NCBI RefSeq assembly: GCF_025061645.1
Contig: NZ_JANYMP010000001.1
Span: 183,448 to 232,065, forward strand
DNA from: Umezawaea endophytica
Lineage (GTDB): Bacteria > Actinomycetota > Actinomycetes > Mycobacteriales > Pseudonocardiaceae
DNA: 48,618 nt
Reading direction: 5' to 3'
Position 1 is the first letter of the stretch; the number at the start of each line of letters is the position of its first letter. The notes beneath the pieces were generated by a model, which saw nothing but the letters and a program-made list of their open reading frames with translations, searched no databases and had not been told where the DNA came from. Below, piece after piece: positions 9,266 to 48,618 of the stretch. The position numbers were made by a program, and so were the translations under genes.

Positions 9266-9283
9266 CCTGGGGGTAAGGGGAGC

Positions 9284-11419: not shown

Positions 11420-11443
11420 AGCGGTCGTCCTCTCGGGAAGGGG

Positions 11444-13116: not shown

Positions 13117-13176
13117 CGCTGCTCCACAACCTCGTCGATGCGGGTCAGCGAAACATAACCGGTGGCGGACGCCGGT

Positions 13177-13193
13177 GGTCCACATGGCGGACC
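13177..13193. promoter_or_regulatory. IclR operator candidate 2 (upstream)
   Basis: GGTCCACATGGCGGACC lies 61 bp upstream of the IclR start and just beyond the stop of the DJ-1 gene. It has 5-bp perfect outer arms and shares 15 of 17 bases with the site at 13081; the two sites are 96 bp apart. Confidence 0.6.
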
Positions 13194-13197
13194 GCTG

Positions 13198-13878: not shown

Positions 13879-14023
13879 CGTGAACCTCCAGGGTCTCGTC
13901 CTACCCCCACAGGTCGTGCGGACCCCGCCGCGGGTTCCCGCGAGCCGCTGATCCCGTCCACCGGACAGCGGCGCAGGGACGAGAACCATGCCCCACCAAC
14001 AGAACCGGGCGCGTGCCGCGGCG

Positions 14024-14764
14024 TCAGGCCAGCACCAGCGCCTCCACCCTGCGCAGTCCGGGACCGGGTTCCAGCCCGAACTCCTCGACGAGCACCGCCC
14101 GCACCCGCCGGTACGTGCGCAGCGCGTCCACCGACCGCCCGGCCCCGTGCTGGGCCTCCACCAGCAGCTCCCACAACCGTTCCCGCCACGGGTACCGGGC
14201 GACCAGCCGCTCCAGTTCCCCGATGGCCTCGACGTGCCGCCCCACCAGGCACAGCGCCGCGGCGAGGTTCTCCTCGACGAGCGTCAGCGCCTCGCGCAGC
14301 CTGCCGACCTCGGCGTCCGCCCAGCCGGTGACCGGGCAGTCCGCGAGCGGATCCCCGCGCCACAGGCCGAGCGCCGCGGTGAGCCGGTCGACCGCCCGGT
14401 GGCCGTCACCCCGGTCCAGCGCTTCCCGGCCGAGCCGCGCGGACGCGTCGAACTCGTGCACGTCCACCCGCACCCGCCGCAGGTCGAGCAGGTAACCGGG
14501 GTCCCTGGTCACCACCATCCCGCCGAGCCCAGCGGCGGACAGCGCTTTCCGCACCTGCGCGACGTGCCCCTGCACCGTGGCCGTCGCCGTCGGCGGCGCC
14601 CGGTGGCCCCACAGCGCGTCGATCAGCGACGACCGCGACACCAGCCGCCCGGAGCCCAGCGCCAGCAGCGCGAACACCGCCCTGCGCCGGGGACCGGTCC
14701 AGCGGACCGGCTCCTGCGGACCGCGCACCTCCAGCGGCCCCAGCAACCGCACCTCTCCGTCCAC
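14024..14764 (-). CDS. SARP-like regulator (OmpR-type wHTH + BTAD domain)
   Basis: A 246-residue protein with the compact SARP layout. The N-terminal winged helix begins VRLLGPLEVRGPQEPVRWTGPRRRAVFALLAL and ends TVQGHVAQVRKALSAAG; the BTAD helical domain includes LTAALGLWRGDPLADC, LVEENLAAALCLVGRH and LERLVARYPWRERLWELLVEAQ. The end lacks the ATPase part found in AfsR, so it is a small SARP. GTG 14764 fits the family N terminus and has GGAGG upstream. Such proteins activate specialised-metabolite or developmental genes, but no biosynthetic cluster is visible nearby. Divergent from the RTX-like gene, which is a possible target. Confidence 0.88.
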   Translation of the reverse strand: MDGEVRLLGPLEVRGPQEPVRWTGPRRRAVFALLALGSGRLVSRSSLIDALWGHRAPPTATATVQGHVAQVRKALSAAGLGGMVVTRDPGYLLDLRRVRVDVHEFDASARLGREALDRGDGHRAVDRLTAALGLWRGDPLADCPVTGWADAEVGRLREALTLVEENLAAALCLVGRHVEAIGELERLVARYPWRERLWELLVEAQHGAGRSVDALRTYRRVRAVLVEEFGLEPGPGLRRVEALVLA

Positions 14765-20261: not shown

Positions 20262-20478
20262 GAATCCTCCAGAATTCCACACGAAATGGTTTTCGCCCCG
20301 GTTCGGACACCACCCATGGTGCAGTAATCCGCTATCCCGAACAGCCACCATCCGCTCGTCGACGGAATAGCCCGATCGCACGACCGATCATCCGCCGGAC
20401 CGATTCACCACATTGTTTTTCGCCATGACCACCGGCGGCCGTCGCCCATTCGCACGACGAACACGGGTCGGGAAACGT
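20262..20478. other. Gap upstream of the tectonin-like gene, no gene seen
   Basis: This 217-bp stretch separates the tectonin-like gene from the argG terminator. It is less GC-rich than its surroundings (TTTTTCGCC, GAATAG, GGAATCC words), as expected for a promoter region of the minus-strand tectonin-like gene. No coding frame with codon bias is visible on either strand. Confidence 0.5.
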
Positions 20479-33880: not shown

Positions 33881-34857
33881 CGGGTCCTCCTGAACCGGCG
33901 CAGGACGTCGGTGGTCGCGCGCTGGAGCAGGGGGACCTTGAAGGCGTTGTGCTCGCGCGGCACGGCGTCGCGCACCAGCGCGGTGACGGCGGCGCTGATC
34001 GCCTGGTCGTCCAGGGGCCTGCCGACCAGTTCCCGTTCCGCCTCGTGCGACCGCCACGGCCGCGGCGCGACCCCGCCGAACACCAGGCGCGCCTCGCGCA
34101 CGACGTCCCCGCTCACCCGCACGGCGGCGGCCACCGAGACCACCGCGAACTCGAAGGTCGCCCGGTCGCGGACCTTGAGGTACCGCGAAGTCCCGGCCAA
34201 CTCGGTGACGGGCACGTCGACACCGGTGATCAGCTCCCCCGGCCGCAGCGCGGACTCCACGTGCGGGGTGTCGCCGGGCAGCGGGTAGAACTCCGCCACC
34301 GGGATGGCGCGCGGGCCGTCGGCGCCGAGGACGCGCACGGTGGCGTCCAGCGCGGTGAGGGCCACGGCCAGGTCGGACGGGTGGACCGCGATGCAGTGGT
34401 CGCTGCCGCCGAGGACGGCGTGCCACCGGTTCATCCCGTCCAGCGCGGCACACCCGCTGCCGGGTTCCCTCTTGTTGCACGGCATGGTGGCGTCGCGGAA
34501 GTACCAGCACCGCGTGCGCTGCAAGAGGTTGCCGCCCAGGGACGCCATGTTGCGCACCTGCGGCGACGCGCTCGCCAGCAGCGCCTGCGCGAGCGCGGGA
34601 AGCCTGCGGACGACCTCCCGGTGCGCGGCGACGTCGCTCATCCTGTTCAGGGAGCCGAGGCGGACGAGTTGGTCGGAGACCCGAACGTCGTTCAGCGGCA
34701 GGGAGTTGATGTCGACCAGGCGGTCGTGCCGCTGCACGCCGTCCTTCATCAGGTTGAGCAGGTCGGTGCCGCCCGCGATGTAGCGGGAGCCGGGCGCGGT
34801 GCCGAGCGCGACGGCGTCGGCGGGCCGGTCGGGGCGGGTGTAGGTGAACGAGTCCAT
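33877..34857 (-). CDS. Molybdenum hydroxylase FAD subunit (PaoB-like, extra Fe-S motif)
   Basis: A 326-residue FAD-binding subunit of the xanthine dehydrogenase medium type. YIAGGTDLLNLMKDG and VRNMASLGGNLLQRTRCWYF hold FAD-pyrophosphate contacts. CWYFRDATMPCNKREPGSGC is the extra cysteine cluster that binds a [4Fe-4S] centre in PaoB/4-hydroxybenzoyl-CoA-reductase-type subunits and is absent from ordinary xanthine dehydrogenases. It passes electrons between the 2Fe-2S subunit and FAD. The start directly abuts the stop of the 2Fe-2S gene, and the stop overlaps the Mo-subunit start. Confidence 0.92.
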   Translation of the reverse strand: MDSFTYTRPDRPADAVALGTAPGSRYIAGGTDLLNLMKDGVQRHDRLVDINSLPLNDVRVSDQLVRLGSLNRMSDVAAHREVVRRLPALAQALLASASPQVRNMASLGGNLLQRTRCWYFRDATMPCNKREPGSGCAALDGMNRWHAVLGGSDHCIAVHPSDLAVALTALDATVRVLGADGPRAIPVAEFYPLPGDTPHVESALRPGELITGVDVPVTELAGTSRYLKVRDRATFEFAVVSVAAAVRVSGDVVREARLVFGGVAPRPWRSHEAERELVGRPLDDQAISAAVTALVRDAVPREHNAFKVPLLQRATTDVLRRFRRTR

Positions 34858-35433
34858 TCAGGACAGCTCCTCTGCGGCGTCGCGAACGGCCGCCACGATG
34901 TTGGGGTAGCAGCCGCAGCGGCACAGGTTGCCGCTCATCCACTCGCGGATCTCGTCGTCGGACCCGGCGTGCCCCTCGGCGACGCACGCGACGGCCGACA
35001 TGACCTGCCCCGGCGTGCAGAAGCCGCACTGGAACCCGTCGCGGCGGAGGAACGCGGCCTGCACGGGGTGCAGCTCACCGCCCGCCAGGCCTTCGACGGT
35101 GGTGATCTCGCGGTTCTGCTGCATGACGGCGAGCGTCAGGCACGACTTGATCCGCCGTCCGTCGACGTGGACGGTGCACGCGCCGCACTCGCCCCGGTCG
35201 CAGCCCTTCTTCGTACCGGTCAAGCCGATGCGCTCGCGCAGGGCGTCGAGCAGCGTCACCCGCGGTTCGAGGACCTGCTCGTACACCTTCCCGTTGACGC
35301 GCAGGGACATCGGCACGGTGCTGTCGGCCGACGCCTCCCGCGGCCACAGCGGTATGGCCGTGGCCGCCGCACCGGCCTTGAGCACGGTGCGCCGGGTCGG
35401 CGTGAAGGCCGACGGGGGTTCTTCCTCGGGCAT
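34858..35433 (-). CDS. Tat-exported [2Fe-2S] subunit of molybdenum hydroxylase (PaoA-like)
   Basis: A 191-residue subunit. The N terminus PTRRTVLKAGAAATAIPLW is a twin-arginine signal, so the folded enzyme is exported, carrying its partners along. The plant-type cluster motif is GCDRGECGACTVHVDGRRIKSC; the second cluster domain is FQCGFCTPGQVMSAVACVAEG and NLCRCGCYPNI. ATG 35433 follows GGAGG. It is first in a three-gene operon with the FAD and Mo subunits. Upstream, direct repeats at 35450 and 35510 may bind the adjacent TetR protein. Confidence 0.92.
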   Translation of the reverse strand: MPEEEPPSAFTPTRRTVLKAGAAATAIPLWPREASADSTVPMSLRVNGKVYEQVLEPRVTLLDALRERIGLTGTKKGCDRGECGACTVHVDGRRIKSCLTLAVMQQNREITTVEGLAGGELHPVQAAFLRRDGFQCGFCTPGQVMSAVACVAEGHAGSDDEIREWMSGNLCRCGCYPNIVAAVRDAAEELS

Positions 35434-35526: not shown

Positions 35527-36219
35527 CTAGGCGGTGGCGATCCTGGTCAGCCACTCCTCGAGCAGGCCTCGCTCCAGTGCGCTCAGCGCTCCGAGGGTGG
35601 GCACGACGGCGCGCAGCGCGACGGCCGTGCTGACCGGATCCACACCGGACCGCTCGGGCGCGGCGGGGCCGGTGGTGACCGCGGCGATGGTCGACTCGCG
35701 GGCCAGCAGCGACAGTGCCGGGTCTCGCTCTTCTTCCGGGAGGCTGATCAGCGTGAACGTCATCCCGCACCCGGCGGCGTGGACGAGGTGCGCCGCACGT
35801 TCCTCGGTGACCTTCAGCCGACCGGCCTCCGCGACCCGCTTGACCTTGCCGGCGAGCACGGCCGACGCCTGCCGCGCCGCGGGCGACTCCACACCGGGCC
35901 GGGCGTCGCCGTAGATCAGCGAGTACAGCGCCGGGTTGCGCACCCCGAAGTCGACGTGCAGGTCCCACCCGTGCCGCAGGTCCTCCACCGGGTCGTCCGT
36001 CTCGGCGAGCGACGTCTTGCTCCGCAGGTAAACCTCAAAGCCGTGACTGGCGACCGCGTCCAGCAACCCCTGCTTGTCACCGAAGATCCGGTAGAGGGTA
36101 GGCGACTGCACCCCCGACGCGGCACACACGGCCCGCGTCGACAACGCCTCCCGCCCCCCTTCGGCCAGCAGGTCGGAGGCGGCCCCGATGATCCGCTCAC
36201 GCGTGAGGTCTCTCTTCAT
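35527..36219 (-). CDS. TetR-family transcriptional regulator
   Basis: A 230-residue TetR protein. The helix-turn-helix is RERIIGAASDLLAEGGREAL and TRAVCAASGVQSPTLYRIFGDKQGLLDAVASHG; the C-terminal half is a typical TetR ligand domain (WDLHVDFGVRNPALYSLIYGD, a WHG-like motif). It is immediately upstream of the Mo-hydroxylase operon in the same direction and probably controls it. The inverted repeat CGGTAAC-N8-GTTACCG lies 9 bp upstream of its start and suggests autoregulation. It does not resemble KstR, so the KstR-like site near mce needs a regulator encoded elsewhere. Confidence 0.9.
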   Translation of the reverse strand: MKRDLTRERIIGAASDLLAEGGREALSTRAVCAASGVQSPTLYRIFGDKQGLLDAVASHGFEVYLRSKTSLAETDDPVEDLRHGWDLHVDFGVRNPALYSLIYGDARPGVESPAARQASAVLAGKVKRVAEAGRLKVTEERAAHLVHAAGCGMTFTLISLPEEERDPALSLLARESTIAAVTTGPAAPERSGVDPVSTAVALRAVVPTLGALSALERGLLEEWLTRIATA

Positions 36220-37129: not shown

Positions 37130-40100
37130 TCACCCGAAGGCCTTCACCTCCAGCATCCCCACCGAGTTCGTTCCGCTCTGGAGCACCACCCGCAACCGCG
37201 TGGTGCTGACCCCGCTGAACGTGACCTCGTTGTACCGATCCCCCGCCGCGGGATACCCGCTCGCCCCCGGCACGTCCACGTACGACCCGCCGTCCCAGTA
37301 CTGGACCTTCCACGACGCCGGCAGCCGCACTCCCCCGTTGTCGTCGAAGAAGTACACCTGCGCCGACTTCACCGTCTGCGCCGCGGACCAGGTCAACTCA
37401 CCCCACTGCTCTCCGGTGTTAGGCCAAGTCGCCCACCGCGGGTTGACCGTGTCGTTCGACGCGGGCGGGTCGACCCCGTCGTTCAAAGCGGCCACGCTCT
37501 CCCAAGACGACGTGTACGAAGCGGAAGCCGTAGCGGCCAACGCCAGGTTCGTCGACGGCGCCGGATCGTTGCCGCCGCCGCGGTTGTACACCTTCACCTC
37601 GGTCAACCCGGTCTTGAACCCCGCCGCGTGGGTCATCACCACCCGCACGCGCTGCGCGCTCACGGGTGTGAAGCGGACGATGTTGTAGTTGGCCCGCGGG
37701 GTGCCGGGTGATCGTGACTGCCCGGACGCGTCGGCCCACGCGCTGCCGTTCCAGTACTGGACGGTGTACGCCGACGGTGCCCGGTACCGGTTGCCCGCGC
37801 GGTCGTCGCGGAAGTGCAGGCGCACCTCGTCGACCGTCCTGGACTGCCCGAAGTTCACCTCGTACCAGTCGGAAGCGTTGGGAGACCCCGAACTCCCCCA
37901 GATCGGCTCGTTGATCGGGAACCCGTCGACCGCCGCGCCGGTGGACGTGCCGGACGCCGTGTAGGACGCCGACACGGCCGCGCCCGAAGCGAGGTTGGGG
38001 GTCGTGGAGGTCAGGTCCGCGCCCGCCTTCGCGAACACGTCCACCATGCGCGCGCTGCTCTGCACCACGTTCTGCGGCGCCTGGAGCCCCGGCACGGCGG
38101 CGCTGTACGTCACGGTCCCGACCCCGCTCGGCAGGCTGACCGCCCCCGTGGCCGGGTTGTAGAGGACGCGGGTGAGGCGGTCGACGGTGAACGCGCGGGT
38201 CCCGTTGAGGTAGACCGAGTACCCCTGCGGCACACCGCTGTAGCGGACCACCCCGTCGGCCGGGTCGTCCCACACCACGCTCAGGTCGGTGTTGCGGTAG
38301 CGCAGGTTGTTCACCGCGAAGTGCGACCAGCCGATGGCGATCGGCGACAGCTCGACCTGCGCGTCGGAGCGCGGCCGGAGCCCGGCGACGTCCTCGACCA
38401 CGGTCCAGTTGCTGCTGCCGAGGATGTTGTGGTGGATCCAGGACCGGTAGTCGATGGCGCGGGTGCCCGCGTTCCAGTCCGCCCAGAACTCGTTGGCGTC
38501 CGGCCACTGGGTGTTGCCGCCGACGTACTGGGCCCACGCGTTCCAGTAGAGCAGCTTCTTGTAGTCCTCGGCCGTCATCCACTGGTTGGGGTAGTTCCGC
38601 AGCACCGAGGAGTAGAGCCGGAACTGCACCGTGGAGTTGATGGTGGAGAAGTTGTTGGAACCGGGGTGACCGGCCGCCGCCGCTTCGGCCTTGTCCTTCT
38701 GGTTGGCCGTGTAGAAGGGGAATACCGGGTACTCGGCCGGGTTGTCGAACAGCCGTAGCGCCTCGCGGTACTGCTCGGTGTTGGGCATCAGCCCGACGGA
38801 GTACGGGTAGTAGTTGTTGATCTCCTTCCACGGCACGTGCTCGTTGGTGGCGACGTGCTTGTGCTCCAGCAGCCTGCGGTTCGGGTTCCACAGCGTGGAG
38901 ACGACGCCGGTGCGGATCCGGTCCGCGAGCGCCTGCATCTCGGTGGCCTTGGCGGTGTTGCCGGTGACCGCGTACGCCTGCTGCGCGGCCATCGCACCGC
39001 TCCACACGTACGCCGTCTCGGCGCGGTCGAGCCGTCCCGCCCGCCAGTCGAACGAGACCGCGTCGGCGTCGTTGCCGGTCAGGGCGCCCCAGTCGTACTC
39101 GATGACGCCGTTGTTGTTGGTGTCGTAGTAGGAGAGCTGCCCCTTCGCGTCACCCTCGGCGTACCTGGCGAGGTTGCCCGCGATCACGGGCTGGCCGCCG
39201 TGGACCTGGTAGCTGCGCCAGGCCGCCTCGGAGATGTACTGGGTGTAGGAGTTGGACCAGTTCTCCGGGTCGCCGGGGTTGTCCATGAACCGGCCGCCCT
39301 TGGACGTCTGCCCGGCCGACAGCCACGGCCCGTAGGAGTAGACCGGGTCGCGCAGGTACTTCAGGTCGTCGATGTGCATCGGCTGGGTCAGCGCGATGGC
39401 GTTGTTGTAGCCGGTGACGCCCTCGATGGACACCGGGAACTGGTAGTCCTGGCCGGGGATGTCCACGTCCAGGTGGTTGAAGCGCATCAGCCACCAGCGG
39501 TAGTAGACGTTCTTCTTGATCGCCGGGTCCGGCACGTCGATGTACGGGATGTTGTCCGCCCACCAGCGGTTGTAGTCGCGCACGTGGGTCGCGAACGCGG
39601 TCGACGGCGAGTAGCCGCGGTAGGCGTTGTACTCGGTCAGGGACTCCGGGATCTCGGTGGTGACGAACCCCATGACGACCTTGGTGGTGACGGTCTGGCC
39701 CGCGCCCACCGTCACCGAGCGCTCCAGCCCGCCGCTCGCGGCGGTGAACCCGTCACCGGACAGCCTCGGGTAGATCGTGGTGAGGTTGTTCTTCACCGCC
39801 CGGCTGCCGGTCAGCTCCGACCCGCTGCCGCTCGTCGCGTACGGCGAGGTGGCGCGCAGCCGCAGCGTCGTGGAACCGCTGCCGCTGTTGACGATGGACA
39901 GGTTCGTGACGGCGACGTTGTTGTGGGTGATGAACTTCGTCATGTCGACGCGGACCGAACCGCTGGTGAAGACGCCCTTCCAGTGGCTCGGCGCCTGCCA
40001 GCGCCCGCTGACCTGCTCGGCGAAGCTGCCCGGCGTGATCGTGACCGAGTAGGCGTTCTGGGAGCTGATGTTGTCCCAGTACGCGGCGTTCCCGCCGAAC

Positions 40101-40429
40101 CCGATCACGGCCGGGTTGTGGGTGTTCAGGTACAGCCCGCGACCGCGGGTCATCAGCCACGGTCCGGCCGGGTCGTTGCCTGGTCTGGCGAGCAGCCGGT
40201 CCATCCAGAAGTCGGTGCCGGAGCTCTCCGCGTCGTAGATGGCGCGCATCGTGCTGCCGGTGCTGTAACCGACCGGTGGGGCGGGGATCGCGGGTCCGGA
40301 GAACGTGGGGTAGCCGATGGTCTGGGCCGCCGAAGCGGTGACGACGGGGACGGTCGGGGTGGCCGCGACGAGGACCGCGGCCAGCACCACCGCCCACCGC
40401 GCCCGCACGGCGCGTCGGGTGAGCAGCAC
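37130..40429 (-). CDS. Secreted six-hairpin-type glycoside hydrolase with two discoidin modules
   Basis: A 1099-residue exported protein. After a signal peptide (AVRARWAVVLAAVLVAATPTVPVVTASA) comes an N-terminal beta-sandwich, then a large (alpha/alpha)6-type domain (about 300-780) with Trp/Asp/Glu-rich motifs such as YYRWWLMRFNHLDVD and VSFDWRAGRLDRAETAYVWSGAMAAQQAYAVTG, like MGH1-like hydrolases. Two discoidin/F5_8C modules follow (about 810-960 and 970-1099). I cannot name the GH family. GTG 40429 is chosen because GAGAGG lies 8 bases upstream. It is the last gene of the arabinose-type locus; the second module resembles that of the neighbouring GH43 protein. Confidence 0.82.
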   Translation of the reverse strand: MLLTRRAVRARWAVVLAAVLVAATPTVPVVTASAAQTIGYPTFSGPAIPAPPVGYSTGSTMRAIYDAESSGTDFWMDRLLARPGNDPAGPWLMTRGRGLYLNTHNPAVIGFGGNAAYWDNISSQNAYSVTITPGSFAEQVSGRWQAPSHWKGVFTSGSVRVDMTKFITHNNVAVTNLSIVNSGSGSTTLRLRATSPYATSGSGSELTGSRAVKNNLTTIYPRLSGDGFTAASGGLERSVTVGAGQTVTTKVVMGFVTTEIPESLTEYNAYRGYSPSTAFATHVRDYNRWWADNIPYIDVPDPAIKKNVYYRWWLMRFNHLDVDIPGQDYQFPVSIEGVTGYNNAIALTQPMHIDDLKYLRDPVYSYGPWLSAGQTSKGGRFMDNPGDPENWSNSYTQYISEAAWRSYQVHGGQPVIAGNLARYAEGDAKGQLSYYDTNNNGVIEYDWGALTGNDADAVSFDWRAGRLDRAETAYVWSGAMAAQQAYAVTGNTAKATEMQALADRIRTGVVSTLWNPNRRLLEHKHVATNEHVPWKEINNYYPYSVGLMPNTEQYREALRLFDNPAEYPVFPFYTANQKDKAEAAAAGHPGSNNFSTINSTVQFRLYSSVLRNYPNQWMTAEDYKKLLYWNAWAQYVGGNTQWPDANEFWADWNAGTRAIDYRSWIHHNILGSSNWTVVEDVAGLRPRSDAQVELSPIAIGWSHFAVNNLRYRNTDLSVVWDDPADGVVRYSGVPQGYSVYLNGTRAFTVDRLTRVLYNPATGAVSLPSGVGTVTYSAAVPGLQAPQNVVQSSARMVDVFAKAGADLTSTTPNLASGAAVSASYTASGTSTGAAVDGFPINEPIWGSSGSPNASDWYEVNFGQSRTVDEVRLHFRDDRAGNRYRAPSAYTVQYWNGSAWADASGQSRSPGTPRANYNIVRFTPVSAQRVRVVMTHAAGFKTGLTEVKVYNRGGGNDPAPSTNLALAATASASYTSSWESVAALNDGVDPPASNDTVNPRWATWPNTGEQWGELTWSAAQTVKSAQVYFFDDNGGVRLPASWKVQYWDGGSYVDVPGASGYPAAGDRYNEVTFSGVSTTRLRVVLQSGTNSVGMLEVKAFG

Positions 40430-40456
40430 GGTGTGCACCTCTCGGGAGGGTGGGGA

Positions 40457-41881
40457 TCAGGCTTGGAAGGCTTGCCACTCCAGGATTCCGGTGGAGTGGT
40501 CCGGTGTGGACGTGACGCTCAACCGCAACCGGCTGGTCGTGACCGCGGTGAACGTGGTGGTGTTGAAGGTGTTGCCCGCGACGCCGCAGGCCGACTGCCC
40601 CGGCACCGGCGCGTAGGCGCTGCCGGTCCAGTACTGGACCTCGCACGAGGCGGGCAGGTCGATGCCCTGGTCGTCGTCGAACCAGTAGGTGGCGACCCTG
40701 TCGACCGACCGGGCCGACGGCCACGTGTACTCGACCCACTGCGTGCCCCGCTCGGGCCAGTTGCCGTACGCGAGGTTGGCGCGGTCACCCGAGTTCGCGG
40801 GCACGCCGCCGTTGTTGACGGCCTCCAGGTGCTCCCACGCGGAGACGAACGACGTGGACCGCGCCGCCGAGGGCGCGATGTTGGTCCCCGTGCCGGTGCC
40901 GGGGTTCGGTGGTGGTCCGGTCGTGGTCTGCACGACCTTCTGCATGGTGCCGTCGGCGTTGAAGTACAGCCGGTCCACGGCGACCGAGCGGCGGAAGTTG
41001 CCGCCGCCGGGGGCGCTCGCGTTGTGGTAGACGATGTACCACTGCCCGTTGAACTGCACGACACCCGCGTGGTTCGTGGTCGAGGAGACCTGGCCCAGCA
41101 CCACACCCCGGTGCGTCCACGGCCCCAGCGGGCTGGTGGCCGTGGCGTAGCGCTGGCAGGCGTAGCTCGACGACGTGACGCAGCCGTTGGTGTCGTTGGC
41201 CGCGTACACCAGGTAGTAGAGGCTCGCGCGCTTGAACATCCAGGGCGCTTCCCAGTAGTCGGTGAGCCCGGTCGGCGTGACCACCGGTCCGTCCAGCTCG
41301 ATCATGTTCGACTTGAGCTTCGCCGCGAGGACTCCCCAGTACCCGCCCCAGTACAGGTAGGCCTGGCCGTCGTCGTCGGTGAAGACGGTCGGGTCGATGT
41401 TCAGCCCGGACGAGTTCGGGGTGCTGTCGCTGACGAGCGGGCCGCCCTTGGCGTCGGTGAACGGCCCGAGCGGGCTGTCCCCGACGGCGACGCCGATGTC
41501 CATCCACCCGGCGCCGTTGCCGTTGACCGAGGTGTACCAGTAGTACTTGCCACCGCGCGGTTCCACCTCACTGGCCCACGCGTCCGCACCCGCCCACTTG
41601 AAGGTGGCGACGGACGCGCGAGCGCCGTGGTCGGTCCAGGTGGCCGCGTCGGTCGACGACAGCACCCGCCACTCGCGCATCAGGAAGTTGCTCCCGCCGG
41701 ACGGGGCTTCGTCGCGACCGGCGTAGACGTACATCGTGTTGCCGACGACCAGCGGGGCCGGGTCGGCGGTGTAGTAGGAGGTGATGATCGGGTTCGCAGC
41801 GTGCGCGGGTACCGCGACGACGGCACCGGCGACGAGCACCGCGGCGGCCGCGAGCCTGGCGGCCCAGCGGGTGGCGGGCAT
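40457..41881 (-). CDS. Secreted GH43-type arabinosidase/xylosidase with C-terminal discoidin-like module
   Basis: A 474-residue exported protein. The signal peptide is AARLAAAAVLVAGAVVAVPAHA. The five-bladed GH43 propeller shows the catalytic trio: base Asp40 in SYYTADPAPLVV, pKa-modulating Asp163 in GLNIDPTVFTDDDG, and acid Glu211 in YWEAPWMFKR. FNGQWYIVYHNAS is a typical late blade. A Pro/Thr linker (TTTGPPPNPGTGTG) joins a carbohydrate-binding F5/8C-like module (IAPSAARSTSFVSAWEHLEAVNNG). Likely activity is alpha-L-arabinofuranosidase or beta-xylosidase; the locus favours arabinose release. ATG 41881 follows GAAGGAGAAG. The stop is 27 bp upstream of the next gene's GTG. Confidence 0.92.
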   Translation of the reverse strand: MPATRWAARLAAAAVLVAGAVVAVPAHAANPIITSYYTADPAPLVVGNTMYVYAGRDEAPSGGSNFLMREWRVLSSTDAATWTDHGARASVATFKWAGADAWASEVEPRGGKYYWYTSVNGNGAGWMDIGVAVGDSPLGPFTDAKGGPLVSDSTPNSSGLNIDPTVFTDDDGQAYLYWGGYWGVLAAKLKSNMIELDGPVVTPTGLTDYWEAPWMFKRASLYYLVYAANDTNGCVTSSSYACQRYATATSPLGPWTHRGVVLGQVSSTTNHAGVVQFNGQWYIVYHNASAPGGGNFRRSVAVDRLYFNADGTMQKVVQTTTGPPPNPGTGTGTNIAPSAARSTSFVSAWEHLEAVNNGGVPANSGDRANLAYGNWPERGTQWVEYTWPSARSVDRVATYWFDDDQGIDLPASCEVQYWTGSAYAPVPGQSACGVAGNTFNTTTFTAVTTSRLRLSVTSTPDHSTGILEWQAFQA

Positions 41882-41904
41882 GGCTTCTCCTTCGGGGAAC
41901 GGCT

Positions 41905-44382
41905 CTACAGCCCGGTCGTGTGCAGGTCCGCGACCTCGGCCGCGGTCAGCGCGCGGGCGTAGACGCGGAACCCGTCCACCGCCCCGTCGAGGGAGGGGTC
42001 GCCCGTGTACTGCGAGCGGCCGATCCAGTTCTGACCCGTGCCGCCGAGCGCCGCGGGCCGGACCGTCAGCGCGGTGTTGCGGGCGACCTCGGCGCCGTTG
42101 ACGTGCAGGACGCCCAGATCCCCCTGCTGCGTCACGGCGACGTGCGTCCACACCCCGACCGGCAGCGGGCTCGCGGCGTCGATCCGCTGCTCCCCCGCGG
42201 CGCCGGACGCGGTGATCGCGAACCGGGCGCCGCCCGCCGAACTCCGCGGGGTGAGGTAGAGGTACGCGCCGGTGCCCGCGCCGAAGTCGAACAGCCTGGC
42301 CCACGTGGCGACCGCGTCCAACCGGACCCAGGCCGCCACGCTGAACGCGCTCGCGCCCGCCAGCAGGCCCGACGGCAGCACGACGTGCGCGCCGGACCCG
42401 GTGAGGTCGACGGCGCCCCCGGTGCGACCAGTGGTCCAGCCCGCGCCGCCCGCCAGCGTCGCAGTGCGGCCGTTGCCGGTGGCGTCGGCCGCCACCGTGC
42501 CCGACCCGGCGTCGAACGGGTAGTGCGCGACGAACGGCGGTGGCGGCGGAGTGCCGTCGACCCTCCAGTAGACGGTGTAGCGCTGGCCCTGCGTGCGGAA
42601 GAACGGCAACAGCGTGACCTGCCCGGTGCTCGCGGTGCCCGTGTACTGCAACGGGGTCTGGGTCGCGCGCAGCGTGGCGGGCTGGAGCGTCGGCATCGTC
42701 TGGAGGTTGGTCGTGCCGTAGGCGCCCGCCAGCACGATCGGACCGTGCCGGACCGCCTGCACCGCCGGGTCGTCCGGGGTGGCCTCCCTCGTCAGCGCCA
42801 TCGGCAGGCTCACGTCGACGACGTCACCGCTCGCCCAGGTCCGGTTGATCCGCGCGTAGGTGCCCGCAACCGGGGCGGCCTGCGGCACGCCGTTGACCCG
42901 CAGCTCCGCGCCGGTCGTCCACGACGGGACGCGCACGCGCAGGTCGATCGCGCCGGACCCGGTGATGGTCAGCCGGGTGGAGGCCGCGTCGGGGAACGTG
43001 GTGTCCTGCCGGACCGTGATGCCGCGCCCCGGCCAGGTCAGCACCGAGGCGATGAACAGGTTGACGTACAGGGTGTTCCCGGAGTGCAGGTAGACGCTGT
43101 CGCCGTGCTTGGTGTTGGTCTCCATGCCGGTGCCGTGGCAGCAGGTGAAGTCGTCGTAGTCGTTGCTGAACGACCGGGCCCCGCCGGGTCGCAGCGGCAC
43201 GTAGTAGCTGTGGTGCCCGTGCGCGGAGTTCGGGTTCTGCGCGCCGAGGAGGTGGTTGTAGAGCGCCTTCTCGTGGAAGTCGAAGTAGTCGGCGCGGCTC
43301 GGGTCGGTGCGGAAGAGCTGCCGGGTGAGCTTGAGCATGTTGTAGGTGTTGCAGCACTCGCAGGTGCTGTCCGACAGCTCGGAGGCGATCCGGCCGGGGG
43401 CCTTGAAGTACTCGCCGTTGGAGTTGCCGCCGATGGCGTAGGTGTGGCGGCCGGTGACGATGGTCCAGAAGGTCGAGGCGATGTCGCGGTACCGCGTGGT
43501 GCCGGTGGCGTGGTACTCGCGGATCGCGCCGATCGCCTTGGGGATCTGGGTGTTGGCGTGGTACCCGTTGAGCGCGTCGGTGCCCGCGGCCAGCGGGTCG
43601 AAGACCTCCGCGTGGTCGAAGTACTGGGCGCTGGTCAGGTGCGCCGGGTCGCCGGTCACCTGGTAGAGGTTGGTCAGGACCTCGTTCATGCCGCCGAACT
43701 CGGTCTTCAGCATGGCCTGGCGCTGGGCGTAGGTCAGCGCGCTGTTGCGGGTCCGCACCCACGCCGCCATGCGGGTGAGCACGGTGAGCGCCTGCGCGTT
43801 GCCGACCAGGAGGTGGGCGTCCAGCAGGCCCGCCATGACCTTGTGCAGCGTGTAGTAGGGGGCCCACACCGGTTCGCGGGCCTCGACGCGGGCGATGAAG
43901 CTCTCCGGGAACGCCGACAGGTAGCCCGCCGTGTACCCGGCGGCCTGGGCCCGGTCCTGGCAGGTCGCGAGCTGCGCGACCAGGTAGTCGGTCTTGGTGG
44001 AGAACGCGGTGTCGCCGGTGCTCGCGTAGGCCTGCGCCAGCGCGGTGAGCACGTGGCCCGTGGAGTGGCCGCGCAGTTCGGTGGTCGGCGACTCCCACCC
44101 TCCACAGGGGACGGCCGAAGAGGACAGACCGACGTTGAGGCGGAACGTGCGCAGCAGCCGGTCGGGGTCGAGGAACCTCAGGTAGGCGTGGGTGCGGGCG
44201 GTGTTCGACTGGAACGGGCCCGCGAGCAGGGACACCGCGCCGAGCGGGAACGCCTCGGCCGACACGCCGACGTCGGCTCGGGACGCCGCGGCCGCGGCGG
44301 GGAACGTGAGCGTGCCGGGCAGCGCGGCCGCCAGCAGGCTCGCGCGCAGCACGGAACGCCGGGAGGGGGTGGGGACGGGCAT
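41905..44382 (-). CDS. Tat-exported GH127 beta-L-arabinofuranosidase with LamG domain
   Basis: An 825-residue protein. PSRRSVLRASLLAAALPGTLTF is a twin-arginine signal. The GH127 barrel has the metal/cysteine active site: Glu in GNSNGEYF (about 324), ExC in STCECCNTYNMLKL (about 341-344) and CC in DFTCCHGTGMETNTKHGD (about 414-415), matching the Zn-thiolate residues of bifidobacterial HypBA1. The C terminus carries a LamG/concanavalin-like domain (VAHYPFDAGSGTVAADATGNG to IGRSQYTGDPSLDGAVDGFRVYARALTAAEV). It removes beta-L-arabinofuranose, found on plant extensins. ATG 44382 is chosen because GAAAGG lies 8-13 bases upstream; GTG 44391 lacks one. Confidence 0.95.
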   Translation of the reverse strand: MPVPTPSRRSVLRASLLAAALPGTLTFPAAAAASRADVGVSAEAFPLGAVSLLAGPFQSNTARTHAYLRFLDPDRLLRTFRLNVGLSSSAVPCGGWESPTTELRGHSTGHVLTALAQAYASTGDTAFSTKTDYLVAQLATCQDRAQAAGYTAGYLSAFPESFIARVEAREPVWAPYYTLHKVMAGLLDAHLLVGNAQALTVLTRMAAWVRTRNSALTYAQRQAMLKTEFGGMNEVLTNLYQVTGDPAHLTSAQYFDHAEVFDPLAAGTDALNGYHANTQIPKAIGAIREYHATGTTRYRDIASTFWTIVTGRHTYAIGGNSNGEYFKAPGRIASELSDSTCECCNTYNMLKLTRQLFRTDPSRADYFDFHEKALYNHLLGAQNPNSAHGHHSYYVPLRPGGARSFSNDYDDFTCCHGTGMETNTKHGDSVYLHSGNTLYVNLFIASVLTWPGRGITVRQDTTFPDAASTRLTITGSGAIDLRVRVPSWTTGAELRVNGVPQAAPVAGTYARINRTWASGDVVDVSLPMALTREATPDDPAVQAVRHGPIVLAGAYGTTNLQTMPTLQPATLRATQTPLQYTGTASTGQVTLLPFFRTQGQRYTVYWRVDGTPPPPPFVAHYPFDAGSGTVAADATGNGRTATLAGGAGWTTGRTGGAVDLTGSGAHVVLPSGLLAGASAFSVAAWVRLDAVATWARLFDFGAGTGAYLYLTPRSSAGGARFAITASGAAGEQRIDAASPLPVGVWTHVAVTQQGDLGVLHVNGAEVARNTALTVRPAALGGTGQNWIGRSQYTGDPSLDGAVDGFRVYARALTAAEVADLHTTGL

Positions 44383-44454
44383 GCGCGTCACCTTTCAGGG
44401 AAGGGAGTGGCACGGGGACGAGCCCGCGGGCCGGCAGGTCGCCCGCGGGGTCGG

Positions 44455-45303
44455 TCAGAAGCCGTAGCGGTACTTCAGGTGGCGCCACCAGTCGCGCAGC
44501 ATCCACTTGTCGAACTCGGTGATGGTGGCGGAGCTGCCCGCCTTCATGATGAAGCCGCCGACACCGGACGGCGTCCAGTCGTAGAAGTCGTCCAGCCCGA
44601 ACGTGTGGCCGACCTCGTGCAGGAAGATCGTCACGCTGTCGGCGTCGAGGTTGTTCAGGAAGTACTCGCTGCCCATGCGCTGGCCCCAGTCACCGCCCGC
44701 GCCGCCGCCGAACCCGGACGTGAGCCACAGCGACTGGTCGTAGTGGTGCGCGTCGCCGCCGGGGCAGTTGGGGTAGGTGCCGCCGCGGACGAAGAACCGG
44801 CCGCACGGTTCGGCGCACTGCGGCGCGTTCTCCCTGATGTTGTTGACGTAGACGTCGACCGAGCTGTCGGACCACTGGAGCTGCGCCCGGTCGCGCACCG
44901 CCCAGCCGACGACCTTGATCGGCACCGTGGCGTAGGGCCAGTTGTCCTGGCCCACCATGGTGTCCATCCACTTCTTGTACTGCCGGGCCAGGGTGGCGTG
45001 GATCCGGTCGCGCTGCGCGGCCGTCACCGACGCGGGCGAGTCCCAGCGCACGCAGAAGTTCACCGAACCGCGGTTGGCGAAGAGCTGGTCCCAACCGTAG
45101 TTCCGGAACCCGTACAGGTCGCCGTAGGTGCTCTCCTGGTGCGCCCACACCTGGTTGAGCGGGGTGACCAGGTTCGCGGGCGGGTTCCACGCGAGGGTCC
45201 CGACCTCCGCCGGGGACGGCGAGGCGCGGCCCACGCCCGCCCCGGTCGACACCAGGACCCCCACCAGGGCGGTGAGGAGGAAGTTCTTCCACAGTCGTAT
45301 CAC
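44455..45303 (-). CDS. Secreted zinc metalloprotease (metzincin-like)
   Basis: A 282-residue exported protein. The signal peptide is NFLLTALVGVLVSTGAGVGRA. The active site is HEVGHTFGLDD (229-239), an HExxHxxGxxD zinc motif with Asp as third-ligand variant, followed by a possible Met-turn in GGFIMKAGSS. Five cysteines suggest disulfides (NFCVRW, APQCAEPCGRF, YPNCPGG). It would cut protein outside the cell. GTG 45303 follows AGGAG. Its place between the ABC importer and arabinose-releasing enzymes on the same strand suggests the substrate is a glycoprotein, but this is inference. Confidence 0.87.
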   Translation of the reverse strand: MIRLWKNFLLTALVGVLVSTGAGVGRASPSPAEVGTLAWNPPANLVTPLNQVWAHQESTYGDLYGFRNYGWDQLFANRGSVNFCVRWDSPASVTAAQRDRIHATLARQYKKWMDTMVGQDNWPYATVPIKVVGWAVRDRAQLQWSDSSVDVYVNNIRENAPQCAEPCGRFFVRGGTYPNCPGGDAHHYDQSLWLTSGFGGGAGGDWGQRMGSEYFLNNLDADSVTIFLHEVGHTFGLDDFYDWTPSGVGGFIMKAGSSATITEFDKWMLRDWWRHLKYRYGF

Positions 45304-45329
45304 CGTTGATACTCCTAATCAGCAGGGTT

Positions 45330-46139
45330 TCAGCCTTTCAGCGCGCCGGAGGTGAACCCGCGCACGTAACTGCGCTGCATGAAGGCGAACAGCACCAGGC
45401 AGGGCAGGGCCATGAAGACGACGCCCGCCTCCAACGCGGCGTAGTCGATGGAGCCGTGGCTCGCGGTCCGCATGTTGACCACGGCGAGGGTGGTGGTGAA
45501 CGTGTCGGTCGAGTTGAGCAGGATCAGCGGCGCGAAGAACTCGCTCCACGACGTCAGGAACGCGAACAGCCCGACCGTGATCAGCCCCGGCCGCACGGCG
45601 GGGAGCATGACCCGGACCAGCGTGCCGACGGTGTCGCAGCCGTCGACGCGCGCCGCCTCCTCCAGCTCCAAGGGGACCGCCTCGAAGGAGTTGCGCATCA
45701 TGAAGATCGAGAACGGGAGCTGGAACATGGTCAGCACCAGGCTCAGGCCGATCAGCGAGTCCTCCAGCCCCAGCCACCCGAGCAGCACGTACAGCGCGAT
45801 CAGGATCGTCGCGTACGGCACCATGAGGATCGCCAGGGTGAGCAGGAACAGCACGTCGCGGCCGGGGAACCGGAACCGGCCGAACGCGTAGCCGCCCAAC
45901 GTCGCGACGAACAGCGTCGCCCCCACGGTGAGGGCGCTGACCACGACGCTGTTGAGCACGTGGTGCGGCCGGACGCCATTGTCGGAGGTGAACAAGCGGG
46001 CGTAGTTCTCCAGGCCGAACCCGGTGTCGGTGCGCAGCGAGGCGAAGCCGCTCCACAGCAGCGGGGACAGGAACAGGATCGCGAGCGCCGTACCGGTGAT
46101 GTGGTGGCCCCACCGCGAGGCCGTGCTGGATCCGGACAT
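45330..46139 (-). CDS. Sugar ABC transporter permease, MalG type
   Basis: A 269-residue inner-membrane permease with six hydrophobic helices. The CUT1 EAA loop is EEAARVDGCDTVGTLVRVMLPAVRPG, which contacts the ATPase. It pairs with the MalF-type permease 13 bp upstream and the binding lipoprotein. No ATPase gene is present; actinomycete CUT1 importers commonly share one global ATPase (MsiK). ATG 46139 follows GAGGGG. Confidence 0.94.
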   Translation of the reverse strand: MSGSSTASRWGHHITGTALAILFLSPLLWSGFASLRTDTGFGLENYARLFTSDNGVRPHHVLNSVVVSALTVGATLFVATLGGYAFGRFRFPGRDVLFLLTLAILMVPYATILIALYVLLGWLGLEDSLIGLSLVLTMFQLPFSIFMMRNSFEAVPLELEEAARVDGCDTVGTLVRVMLPAVRPGLITVGLFAFLTSWSEFFAPLILLNSTDTFTTTLAVVNMRTASHGSIDYAALEAGVVFMALPCLVLFAFMQRSYVRGFTSGALKG

Positions 46140-46152
46140 GGTTCGGTGCCCC

Positions 46153-47109
46153 TCACTCGGACCGTCGGCGCAGCACGCGGAACTGGACGACGTTGACCAC
46201 GACGAGCACGACGAGCAGCGCGACCGAGATGCCAGCGGCCGAGCCGAGGTCGAGGCGGACGAACGCCTCCCGGTAGATCACCATCACCAGCGAGGTGGTG
46301 CTGTTGTCCGGGCCGCCGCGGGTGAGGATCCAGAACTGGTCGAACGCCAGCAGCGAGCCGGTCGACATCACCGTGAGCACCAGCGCGATCGTCGGCCGCA
46401 TCAGCGGGAGGGTGATCCGGTGGAAGGTCTGCCACCGGTTCGCGCCGTCGATGCGGGCGGCCTCGTAGACGTCCGGCGGGATCGCCTGCAACCCCGTCAG
46501 CAGGACCAGCATGTTGAACCCGGCGAAGCGCCACAGCACGAGCACCACCGCCGAGCCGAGCGCGGTCTCCGGGCTGCCGCTGGTCCACGAGACGTAGCCG
46601 TCGACAAGTCCCAGCCAGGACAGCAGGTCGTTCACCGGGCCGATCTCGTCGCTGAGCAGCCCGAGGAACAGCAGCGACGCGCTGGCGAAGCCCACCGCCA
46701 TCGGCAGGAGGAACGCCGTCCGCAGGAAGCCGACGCCGCGGCGGCGGTGCTGGACCAGCAGCGCCAGGCCGAAGGCGACCACGAACAGCAGCGCCGTCAT
46801 CACGGCGGTGTACTTGAGGGTGAACCACACGGCCGACTCGACCAGTTCGTCGTCGGCGATGCCGGTGAAGTTGTCCGGCAGGTTGAGCGTCGGCTTGCCG
46901 AGCAGTGGCCAGCGGTGCAGCGACATCCAGCCGACGAGCACCAGCGGCACCAGGAAGAACAGGCCGACCACGACGGCCGTCGGGGTGGCGTACGCGGCGC
47001 CGACCAGCGCTCGCCACCGCCGTCCGCCGAGCGCGCGGCGGGCACGGCGAGGTGCCGCGTGCCGCGGTTCCGCCCGGTCCCGAGGAGGTGACGTCATCGT
47101 CGCCGACAC
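46153..47109 (-). CDS. Sugar ABC transporter permease, MalF type
   Basis: A 318-residue permease with six membrane helices (YATPTAVVVGLFFLVPLVLVGW first) after a basic Arg-rich cytoplasmic N terminus. The EAA loop is YEAARIDGANRWQTFHRITLPLMRPT. GTG 47109 lies 4 bp after the stop of the binding-protein gene; ATG 47097 is a second in-frame choice. It is part of the same operon as the binding lipoprotein and MalG-type permease. Confidence 0.94.
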   Translation of the reverse strand: MSATMTSPPRDRAEPRHAAPRRARRALGGRRWRALVGAAYATPTAVVVGLFFLVPLVLVGWMSLHRWPLLGKPTLNLPDNFTGIADDELVESAVWFTLKYTAVMTALLFVVAFGLALLVQHRRRGVGFLRTAFLLPMAVGFASASLLFLGLLSDEIGPVNDLLSWLGLVDGYVSWTSGSPETALGSAVVLVLWRFAGFNMLVLLTGLQAIPPDVYEAARIDGANRWQTFHRITLPLMRPTIALVLTVMSTGSLLAFDQFWILTRGGPDNSTTSLVMVIYREAFVRLDLGSAAGISVALLVVLVVVNVVQFRVLRRRSE

Positions 47110-47113
47110 GGGT

Positions 47114-48385
47114 TCAGCCCTGCTGGAGCGACTTGGTGATGGCCGCGTTGCCCTCGGCCAGCGCGGTGGCCGCGTCGCCGAACAGCGCGCCGCGCACGGT
47201 CTTCAGCCACGGGCTCTGCGGGTCGTTGAAGGAGGAGTTGAAGTTCTGCGCGTACGGCGTCCGTCCTTTCGCGACCAGTCCGTTCACCGTCACGAGGCGC
47301 GGGTCGGCCGAGGAGTGCTCGTTCGCGGCCAGGTCGGTGCGGGTGGGCACGCCCTTGTTCTTGGCCACCACCCCGACCTGGGCCTCCTCGGACATCGTCC
47401 AGGCCAGGAAGTCCCACGCCTGCGCCTCTTTCCCACTGGTGGCGCCGATGCCGAGGGTGTCGCCGCCGACGAACGTGGACTCGCCGCCGGTCAGCCCGGT
47501 GATCGGCGCGACCCCCACGTCGATCCCCTTGGCCGCCAACGCGTCCAGCCAGGTCGACGGGCCGGGCGCGACGCCGATCGTCCCGGCCTGGAGCGCGCCG
47601 AGCCACGTCGGCCCCGCCTCGTCCTTGGAGGCGGGCGCGGCCACGCCGTCCTCGTAGAGCGAGCGGTAGAGGGCGAACACGTCCGCCATGGCGGCGGAGT
47701 CGATCTTCGCGTGCGTGCCGCCGTCGTCGAGCACGTCACCGCCCGCGGCCCACACCGACGGCCAGAGCGTGAACTCGACGCACCCGCCGCAGTTGCCGCC
47801 GAAGTAGGTGCCGTGGACGTCACCGCCGAGCTGGTCGACCTTGCGGGCGTGCTCGGCGAACTCGCGCAGCGTGGTGGGCGGCTTCGCCGGGTCCAGGCCC
47901 GCCTTCGCGTACAGGCCCTTGTCGTAGAACAGCACCGACAGGTCGATGGTGTGCGGGACCGCGTAGGTGCGCCCCTCCCAGGTGGCAGCCTTCACGTGGG
48001 ACGGCGCCATCGCGTCCTTCTCCGGGAACGCCGCGAACCGGTCGGTCAGGTCGGCCCACAGCCCCCGGGACGCGTACTGGGCGGCGAACACGACGTCGGC
48101 CGCGAAGAGGTCGGGCAGCGCCTTCGCGCCCGCGGCCGACGCGAGCTTGGCCGGGTACTCCTCGTTGGGGTAGGCGGTGACCTCGACCTTGTTGCGGTGG
48201 CCCGCGTTGTAGGCGTCCGCGTAGGCCCTCGACACCGACTCGGTCGCGGCGCGCGTCCACAGCGTCAGCGTGGTCCCGTCGTCCGCCGCCCCGGTCGGCT
48301 CCTCCCCGCCGCCGCACGCCGTCGTGGCCAGGAGCAGCAGACCCGCCGCCAGGACGGCGGTCCTTCGAAGACCTCTCGGTGTCAC
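47114..48385 (-). CDS. Extracellular sugar-binding lipoprotein of CUT1 ABC transporter
   Basis: A 423-residue lipoprotein. The lipobox LATTAC ends at Cys24, followed by a short Gly/Glu linker. The type-1 solute-binding fold shows TLTLWTRAATESVSRAYADAYNAGHRN, LPDLFAADVVFAAQYASRGL, YAVPHTIDLSVLFYDKGLYAKAGLDPAKPPTTLREF and AWDFLAWTMSEEAQVGVVAKNKGVPTR, all typical of oligosaccharide-binding proteins. Substrate is likely an arabinose-containing oligosaccharide, judged from neighbours. GTG 48385 follows AGGAGATACC. Confidence 0.95.
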   Translation of the reverse strand: MTPRGLRRTAVLAAGLLLLATTACGGGEEPTGAADDGTTLTLWTRAATESVSRAYADAYNAGHRNKVEVTAYPNEEYPAKLASAAGAKALPDLFAADVVFAAQYASRGLWADLTDRFAAFPEKDAMAPSHVKAATWEGRTYAVPHTIDLSVLFYDKGLYAKAGLDPAKPPTTLREFAEHARKVDQLGGDVHGTYFGGNCGGCVEFTLWPSVWAAGGDVLDDGGTHAKIDSAAMADVFALYRSLYEDGVAAPASKDEAGPTWLGALQAGTIGVAPGPSTWLDALAAKGIDVGVAPITGLTGGESTFVGGDTLGIGATSGKEAQAWDFLAWTMSEEAQVGVVAKNKGVPTRTDLAANEHSSADPRLVTVNGLVAKGRTPYAQNFNSSFNDPQSPWLKTVRGALFGDAATALAEGNAAITKSLQQG

Positions 48386-48413
48386 CGGTATCTCCTCTCG
48401 CGCGGGCGGATCG

Positions 48414-48618
48414 TCAGGTGGTCGGCAGCCAGACGCGCATGGTCGACGGGCCGCGGCGGGCCCAGCGGTGGTACGGCACCAGGTGCAGTGGGGCGAGAGC
48501 GGTGTCGGACGGCGGTTCGGCCGTCCCGTACGGCCAGCGCGCGTCGGCGGGGACGTCGAACCGGGCGCTCACCGCGACCCCGCCGTCGTCCTCGACCGGC
48601 TCGGCGGTGACCTCGACC
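48414..48618 (-). CDS. C-terminal end of a GH127-like glycoside hydrolase (cut by window edge)
   Basis: The minus strand is open from the window edge to a TGA at 48414-48416, giving about 67 codons. The visible tail reads EVTAEPVEDDGGVAVSARFDVPADARWPYG and ends APLHLVPYHRWARRGPSTMRVWLPTT. The VPYxxWxxRGPxxMRVWxP ending is the standard C terminus of GH127-type beta-L-arabinofuranosidases. It lies 28 bp upstream of the binding-protein gene and so is probably in the same operon, a second GH127-type enzyme of the locus. Confidence 0.75.
   Translation of the reverse strand, partial: VEVTAEPVEDDGGVAVSARFDVPADARWPYGTAEPPSDTALAPLHLVPYHRWARRGPSTMRVWLPTT

Follow-up and report, generated by a model that had tools for sequence, protein, structure and literature searches.

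Extensins are cross-linked glycoprotein scaffolds of plant walls. Bacterial systems for their arabinosylated hydroxyproline (Hyp) residues have been described from Bifidobacterium longum, where the HypAA/HypBA2/HypBA1 enzymes belong to GH43, GH121 and GH127 and are accompanied by an ATP-binding cassette (ABC) importer and a LacI-family regulator (PMC7263609, PMC5928203), and from Xanthomonas euvesicatoria, where a GH43 enzyme, a GH121 enzyme and XeHypBA1, encoded by xehypBA1 and xehypBA2-AA, deglycosylate Hyp carrying four arabinoses (Ara4-Hyp) outside the cell (PMC6085000). The GH43 enzyme HypAA acts first, taking off the α-1,3 arabinose cap, the GH121 enzymes tested so far are strict for Ara3-Hyp, and the last arabinose on Hyp is removed by XeHypBA1 (PMC6085000), which has been assigned to GH146 (PMC10850190). 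Carrot extensin and potato lectin are substrates of HypBA2, and the bifidobacterial LacI-family regulator BauR1 governs hypBA1, hypBA2 and the importer (PMC5928203). Some actinomycetes have already been credited with GH121 and GH43 homologues (PMC6085000). A 48,618-nucleotide stretch of the 11.0 Mb genome of the actinomycete Umezawaea endophytica (G000:C1:183448-232065; the window) was found to carry at its end an arabinose locus comparable with these systems, which in addition encodes a secreted protease.

The locus represents an actinomycete version of the HypAA/HypBA2/HypBA1 system already known for the Hyp-linked arabino-oligosaccharides of extensins. The arabinoside system itself is thus known; new is the protease that accompanies it, which belongs to an undescribed family, recurs beside such systems and is apparently co-regulated with them. 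Taken as a whole, the locus probably serves as an operon for the utilization of extensin, a Hyp-rich glycoprotein, with a protease that cuts the backbone.

The arabinose locus and its counterparts

Eight genes ran head to tail on the minus strand from 48617 to 37130 with intergenic gaps of 4–63 bases, consistent with one operon, and the arabinose enzymes, importer and protease that an earlier note on this DNA had placed on a shared strand were all among them. In order of transcription they encode a GH127 enzyme, a solute-binding protein, two permeases, the protease, a GH146-type enzyme, a GH43 enzyme and a GH121 enzyme:

48414..48617, minus strand: C-terminal end of a HypBA1-like GH127 enzyme (Pfam Glyco_hydro127C, E 3.5e-7)
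47114..48385, minus strand: lipoprotein-type solute-binding protein of an ABC importer (SBP_bac_8, E 6.6e-33; lipobox-like LATTAC by eye)
46153..47109, minus strand: ABC permease 1 (BPD_transp_1, E 1.9e-16)
45330..46139, minus strand: ABC permease 2 (BPD_transp_1, E 1.6e-17)
44455..45303, minus strand: predicted secreted metzincin-like zinc protease of 282 residues (GTG start, AGGAG upstream)
44587..44619, minus strand: zinc-binding motif HExGHxxGxxD of the protease, HEVGHTFGLDD (motif search and alignment)
41905..44391, minus strand: GH127-superfamily enzyme of GH146 type with a C-terminal LamG domain (GH127_cat, E 1.6e-117; Laminin_G_3, E 6.3e-31)
40457..41884, minus strand: secreted GH43 enzyme with a C-terminal DUF7402-like domain (Glyco_hydro_43, E 3.9e-44; DUF7402 below cut-off)
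37130..40438, minus strand: GH121 β-L-arabinobiosidase of HypBA2 type with two C-terminal F5/8C or DUF7402 domains (6m5a, NF041578)
37133..37558, minus strand: C-terminal DUF7402-type domain of the GH121 enzyme (domain search and identity comparison)

The large hydrolase at the end of the operon, described in the earlier note as of six-hairpin type and left unassigned, comprises 1102 residues, of which 88–809 matched the solved β-L-arabinobiosidase 6m5a (E 3.4e-189). Its match to the NCBIfam HypBA2 model NF041578 (E 1.3e-262) covered positions 3–1033 of 1709 and remained below the cut-off (874.8 vs 3200 bits). The essential acids of HypBA2, E383, D515 and E713 (PMC7263609), were all kept at a constant offset of 31, within SIEGV, GNDADAV and NEFW. 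By these three lines of homology the hydrolase is a GH121 β-L-arabinobiosidase of HypBA2 type. Elsewhere in the genome, an open frame of 1051 residues at G000:C10:192697-194538 shows distant similarity to GH121 in one region (28%) and contains the only DUF7402-type domain found outside the locus (41%); it may encode a second arabinose-directed enzyme.

Both of the GH127-type enzymes claimed previously were present, and their identities could be refined: one is a HypBA1-like GH127, most of which lies outside the window, and the other a secreted enzyme resembling GH146. The window edge is a run of 12 N, and only the final 67 residues of the GH127 lie within it, the gene running on to about G000:C1 233760. 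The 561 residues from beyond the N run matched the solved GH127 structures 4qjy (E 4.4e-91) and 3wkw (E 8.6e-73), and the translation contains SETC and SCC, corresponding to the ExC and CC residues of GH127 catalytic sequences. Judged by homology, and by eye for the leader, this enzyme is HypBA1-like and without a signal peptide. The GH146-type enzyme, which has a twin-arginine-like leader by eye, was closest to the solved chain 5opj (E 1.1e-103), with the ExC and CC residues aligned, followed by 8k7y/8k7x (E 3e-58 to 8e-58), ahead of the GH127 4qjy (E 2.9e-18). We take 5opj and 8k7y/8k7x to be GH146 enzymes (BT0349 and bifidobacterial, respectively). That assumption fits the account in PMC10850190. 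The GH43 enzyme matched the solved chain 3qed (E 6.2e-80), and its C-terminal domain was 44% identical to that of the GH121 enzyme.

In the translations, read by eye, leaders of secretion type were seen on the GH121, GH43 and GH146-type enzymes and on the protease, and none on the GH127; the gene preceding the GH127, in divergent orientation, was likewise read by eye as a LacI-type regulator. Each step of the known Hyp-arabinoside pathway thus appears to have a candidate (GH43, GH121, the secreted GH146-type enzyme and the leaderless GH127), and GH43, GH121, GH127, importer and LacI-type regulator are all together at the locus, as in the LacI-regulated precedent; as far as the sugars are concerned, the system is thus of a kind already known. 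The locus shares all five components with B. longum, and in both the GH127 is intracellular and the GH121 extracellular (PMC7263609, PMC5928203). It differs from what is described there in adding a secreted GH146-type enzyme and the protease and in showing no membrane anchor by eye. With X. euvesicatoria it shares the GH43, GH121 and XeHypBA1 (GH146) steps outside the cell; it differs in that XeHypBA1 is extracellular there, and the available text of PMC6085000 does not mention an importer. The strictness of GH121 for Ara3-Hyp and the action of HypBA2 on carrot extensin support the earlier suggestion that extensin is the target of the arabinose enzymes.

Terminator-like sites at the locus were at chance level (4 found vs 3.5 expected), and a scan of the locus for sigma-70-type promoters gave no match. 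Outside the locus, a frame at about 31673-35029 of the window looked xanthine-dehydrogenase-like by eye and lies near a TetR-type regulator (35527-36219; TetR_N, E 2.4e-11); both are unrelated to the arabinose genes.

The protease and its relatives

The secreted HExxHxxGxxD protease of the earlier note was recovered: the motif occurred once in the six frames of the window, within the protease gene and starting at 44619. The gene was the sole match of its kind in its own genome. A scan of named genomes, from which the best 80 of 300 relatives were kept and analysed, showed the motif in 79 of the 80, the exception being a truncated gene (L143). Residues H191, E192, H195, G198, D201 and Met215 were invariant in an alignment of 56 rows, made up of the window protease, four further sequences and the 51 of the 80 loci that were left after thinning at 93% identity; L143 was excluded from this alignment and from the tree.

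Against Pfam and NCBIfam the protease fell below every cut-off, with sub-threshold matches to M66, M12B, M6 and snapalysin. The best NCBIfam matches over the 56 rows were E 2.7e-5 for M6 and 0.017 for snapalysin, and the M6 domain model scored about 22 bits compared with a cut-off of 110.8. Membership of M6, M7 snapalysin, M12 and M66 was rejected, since the curated cut-offs were missed. Searches of PDB with the protease sequence and with a profile gave no match at E up to 10. The structure model built from the 56-row alignment had a mean predicted local distance difference test score (pLDDT) of 86.9 (69.2 for an earlier model from a shallower alignment), and Foldseek found no match to it at E 0.001 or better; the top match was the metzincin ADAMTS4, which was non-significant (E 0.33, template modelling score 0.43), and fragilysin and MMP-3 were among the weak matches, alongside unrelated folds. 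At the sequence level the protease has the metzincin signature HExxHxxGxx(H/D), in the form HExGHxxGxxD, together with the conserved downstream Met, and it shares these features with the metzincins, whose nearest curated models are snapalysin and M6, all model and Foldseek scores being non-significant. We read it as a member of a metzincin-like family without a curated model.

Proteases acting on extensins are known. Svx of Pectobacterium atrosepticum, likewise a secreted zinc metallopeptidase, cleaves extensins (PMC9266454, PMC13164431) and requires an accessory domain that recognizes arabinan chains (PMC13164431), and Prt1 and the gp120-degrading metallopeptidase of X. campestris are reported to cut plant extensins (PMC9266454). 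The available text of PMC9266454 and PMC13164431 makes no mention of an arabinosidase operon for Svx. Svx is a gluzincin with the motif HEXXHX(22)E (PMC9266454), whereas the window protease has HExGHxxGxxD with no Glu in the range that the gluzincin motif HEXXHX(8,28)E allows; an Svx-type gluzincin was rejected because the next Glu stands 30 residues past HExxH and is variable, and D201 is invariant.

In X. euvesicatoria a putative peptidase gene adjoins xehypAA and, according to the authors, its product may degrade the backbone; that peptidase is a predicted prolyl oligopeptidase (PMC6085000), whereas the window's is a metalloprotease. The same source expects deglycosylated glycoproteins to become accessible to proteases. 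The idea of a protease acting after sugar removal is therefore not new, as PMC6085000 voiced it and noted the prolyl oligopeptidase gene; the present protease is not discussed there, since the main text mentions a protease or peptidase only those two times. A literature search, with subscription journals mostly outside its scope, found no paper that pairs this protease with a GH121 system.

Association with GH121 and shared palindromes

The window's own family was represented by 249 genomes. GH121 (threshold E < 1e-80) was found in 28 of these and the protease in 33, and all 28 GH121 genomes had the protease (Fisher 2.8e-32, which ignores kinship and is a guide only). The two genes lay 1.5–4.8 kb apart on the same strand in 26 of the 28, with the protease upstream in 21 and downstream in five; one genome (G514) has a second GH121, 44% identical and unlinked to the protease. 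The family of G087 (150 genomes) contained the protease in 22 genomes, GH121 in 27 and both in 16 (Fisher 4e-10, again ignoring kinship and a guide only), and in five of these 16 the protease was within 5 kb of GH121, one of the five pairs being on opposite strands.

The 80 named loci were searched with tblastn in fetched stretches of up to 10 kb on each side, a gene being counted as nearby at scores of at least 300 bits (GH121, GH127), 250 bits (GH43, GH146) or 200 bits (solute-binding protein). GH121 was near the protease in 35/80 loci and 12/21 genera (one locus being named only to family, and L088, [Actinomadura] parvosata, being counted as Nonomuraea); GH43 was found in 35 loci, GH127 in 30, the GH146 type in 25 and any of the four in 42. 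The protease and GH121 were on one strand within 5 kb in 32 of the 35 linked loci (protease upstream in 27, downstream in five), divergent within 5 kb in one, and on opposite strands further off in two. The protease preceded GH146-GH43-GH121 in most Lentzea, Saccharothrix and Asanoa loci and followed GH43-GH121 in Herbidospora, Streptosporangium and two Nonomuraea, and it was divergent in one Micromonospora. The protease tree mostly followed genera, and linkage to GH121 changed at least nine times on it, four short contigs having been excluded from this count.

A palindrome, CGAAA-N4-TTTCG, was first noticed between the LacI and GH127 genes of linked loci. In the window's own genome it stands 55 bases ahead of the assumed GH127 start, and it occurred at six places in the 11 Mb, compared with 0 for a reversed control; no arabinose locus was seen by eye in the surroundings of the other five. 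A further copy in the window, at 20282-20295, has no obvious gene start under its control. Across the 80 loci the palindrome occurred 46 times vs 0.26 expected from composition, mostly ahead of the operon or the protease. It also stood no more than 1,100 bases ahead of the protease domain in nine of 40 loci without GH121, where 0.01 was expected from shuffles (75 loci used, the five of 80 with <900 bases upstream being excluded). A relative of LacI or GH127 lies close by in three of the nine (L115, L128 and L150), and some of the nine stretches are cut short by a contig edge, so that true linkage to GH121 may be hidden. At least one copy was present at the locus in four genomes of the family (G366, G465, G398 and G489).

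Screening the regions ahead of unlinked proteases for palindromes produced hits in 6/26 loci and brought out TGTTAGCGCTAACA. Of the Nonomuraea loci, 16 are without GH121, and in 12 of them this sequence (≤2 mismatches) stood 529–561 bases ahead of the protease domain; it was also found ahead of GH43 in L099, L100, L104 and L139, the matches numbering 29 in all vs 0, 1, 3 and 5 for four scrambled palindromes. Eight genomes with unlinked GH121 and protease were examined, and in three of these (G668, G705 and G695) TGTTAGCGCTAACA, with 0–2 mismatches, was present ahead of both the GH43-GH121 operon and the protease.

The protease relatives also carried accessory domains. An in-frame domain 67–75% identical to the C-terminal DUF7402-type domain of the window GH121 preceded the protease in 29/80, and a CBM2 was present in 18/80. 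The 45 proteases without GH121 nearby comprised 20 with the DUF7402-type domain, 15 with CBM2, seven alone and three cut by contig ends, and the 35 near GH121 comprised nine, three and 23 with neither; the window protease itself has neither. In the window's own genome the DUF7402-type domain was found four times, three of them inside the arabinose locus. Two similar-looking proteins with leader-like starts, Ig-type domains and no catalytic Pfam match, one of them ending in a DUF7402-type domain, are encoded at 10778-14257 of a Nonomuraea jabiensis locus (L121), flanked on one side by the DUF7402-protease and on the other by a LacI gene, which is accompanied by a GH127-like gene; L096, L120, L123 and L127 gave DUF7402, LacI and GH127-like matches as in L121.

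Proposed mechanism and its rivals

Under the proposed mechanism the GH43 enzyme would remove the α-linked arabinose cap outside the cell, where GH121 would then free β-arabinobiose from Ara3-Hyp and the GH146-type enzyme would take the last arabinose off Hyp. The metzincin-like protease would next cut the bared or partly bared peptide backbone, and β-arabinobiose would be taken up by the ABC importer and split by the intracellular GH127, the unit being controlled by the LacI-type regulator via CGAAA-N4-TTTCG. The sugar steps rest on characterized Bifidobacterium and Xanthomonas homologues, from which the exact bond attributed to each window enzyme is extrapolated; the pairing of regulator and palindrome is presumed, and the action of the protease on extensin is predicted from genome context. 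As a more tentative extension, it is possible that the protease is the founder of a new metallopeptidase family of dedicated ‘extensinases’, which would cut the Hyp-rich backbone after it has been bared or would read residual arabinose, and that the DUF7402-type domain of GH121, GH43 and protease is a common extensin-binding module.

Several observations weigh against an extensin operon with its own protease. The window GH43 could be placed at the level of family GH43 only, which leaves it a candidate for the HypAA-type role. Within the window's own family, 5/33 protease genomes had no GH121, two genomes with a more distant GH121 (G387 and G441, 56–57% identical) held the protease >1 Mb away, and G403, of the same genus as the window, had neither gene. 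In the family of G087, 11/27 GH121 genomes were without the protease, and 11 of the 16 with both genes did not have them within 5 kb, some of these being pairs split between contigs, whose real distance is hidden. A class-wide sample of 345 genomes (GH121 threshold E < 1e-100) contained GH121 in 22, a full-length protease in eight and both in three (Fisher 0.01, ignoring kinship and a guide only), so that 19/22 GH121 genomes were without a full-length protease; the window's pair was the sole adjacent one, and no intact protease was found in 13 stretches of about 20 kb from this sample, 12 of which contain GH121 and the thirteenth a remnant of it. At the remnant locus (L067, G275:C32:68500-88400) the LacI, importer and GH127 genes are intact, and next to them, at about 8909-10187, stands the decayed C-terminal end of GH121 with decayed pieces of the protease immediately after it; this counts in favour of the pairing and suggests that the unit is being lost in that lineage. 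With most GH121 genomes of the class sample lacking it, the protease is an accessory found in one subset of GH121 systems. The view from this sample that the protease is unrelated to GH121 loci was rejected for several lineages after the named-genome and family searches, the class result remaining a limit. The co-conservation of protease and arabinosidases raised in the earlier note accordingly stood in the own family (28/28), the family of G087 (16/27) and the named loci (35/80), and largely failed in the class sample (3/22).

The palindromes are also open to objection. CGAAAN4TTTCG occurred at 1–8 places in five other genomes of the family vs 0–5 for the reversed control, counts that make it too unspecific to prove a regulon, and it was missing from the contig that carries the GH121 locus in G408. 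In the eight genomes with unlinked genes, TGTTAGCGCTAACA was doubtful in two (G612 and G657) and missing at the protease in three (G613, G674 and G710), and with ≤1 mismatch it was found at 16–27 places per genome in G668, G705 and G695 (reversed control 0); it is probably a wider sugar-regulator motif.

The 5/33 protease genomes without GH121 would fit a general plant-cell-wall protease, targeted to the wall by CBM2 or DUF7402 and co-induced by wall material without a preference for Hyp-rich sequences, as would the CBM2 on 18/80 relatives, the CBM2 form in Herpetosiphon (L110), and the pectate lyase (L121), GH2 (L108) and CBM2 protein (L126) near three of four scanned unlinked copies, L088 having none. 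We consider this unlikely, given the specific association with GH121 in 28/28 family genomes and 35/80 named loci and the fact that the domain fused in 29/80 is of the GH121 type. A role in maturing or shedding the secreted enzymes of its own operon, for which the secretion-type leader and the co-encoding with three secreted multidomain enzymes could be cited, is highly improbable: many copies lie away from GH121, fused to a DUF7402 or CBM2 of their own (35/45), and no full-length relative is present in 19/22 of the GH121 genomes in the class sample.

The real substrate could also be another β-arabinofuranose polymer (arabinan, rhamnogalacturonan II or arabinogalactan-protein) and the protease incidental, as enzymes of the GH127/GH146 superfamily act on several polymers (PMC10850190) and the solved chain nearest to the GH43 was deposited under the name β-xylosidase/α-L-arabinofuranosidase, the GH43 also having weak sub-cut-off matches to arabinanase models. 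There is very little to be expected from this explanation when the tested GH121 homologues are strict for Ara3-Hyp (PMC6085000) and, besides GH43, no galactan-, arabinan- or rhamnogalacturonan II-backbone enzyme was recognized among the eight genes. The arabinogalactan-protein target that the earlier note had offered beside extensin was rejected, no galactan-acting enzyme having been recognized among these genes.

Extensin breakdown in soil has, to our knowledge, been little studied. Enzymes that remove the arabinose have been described in gut bifidobacteria and Xanthomonas, and a few backbone proteases (Svx, Prt1) are reported from plant pathogens; the present comparison yields one conserved, apparently co-regulated candidate family of backbone proteases in soil actinomycetes, with predicted partners and a likely binding domain, so that the dismantling of the backbone by these bacteria becomes a question answerable by ordinary enzyme assay. 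GH121 in several actinomycete genera is part of a larger recurrent unit, and the full target set of TGTTAGCGCTAACA could define a plant-wall regulon of the G668, G705 and G695 bacteria. If the protease is indeed a dedicated extensinase, extensin would be a source of both carbon and nitrogen for actinomycetes, sugar first and backbone second, under one operator.

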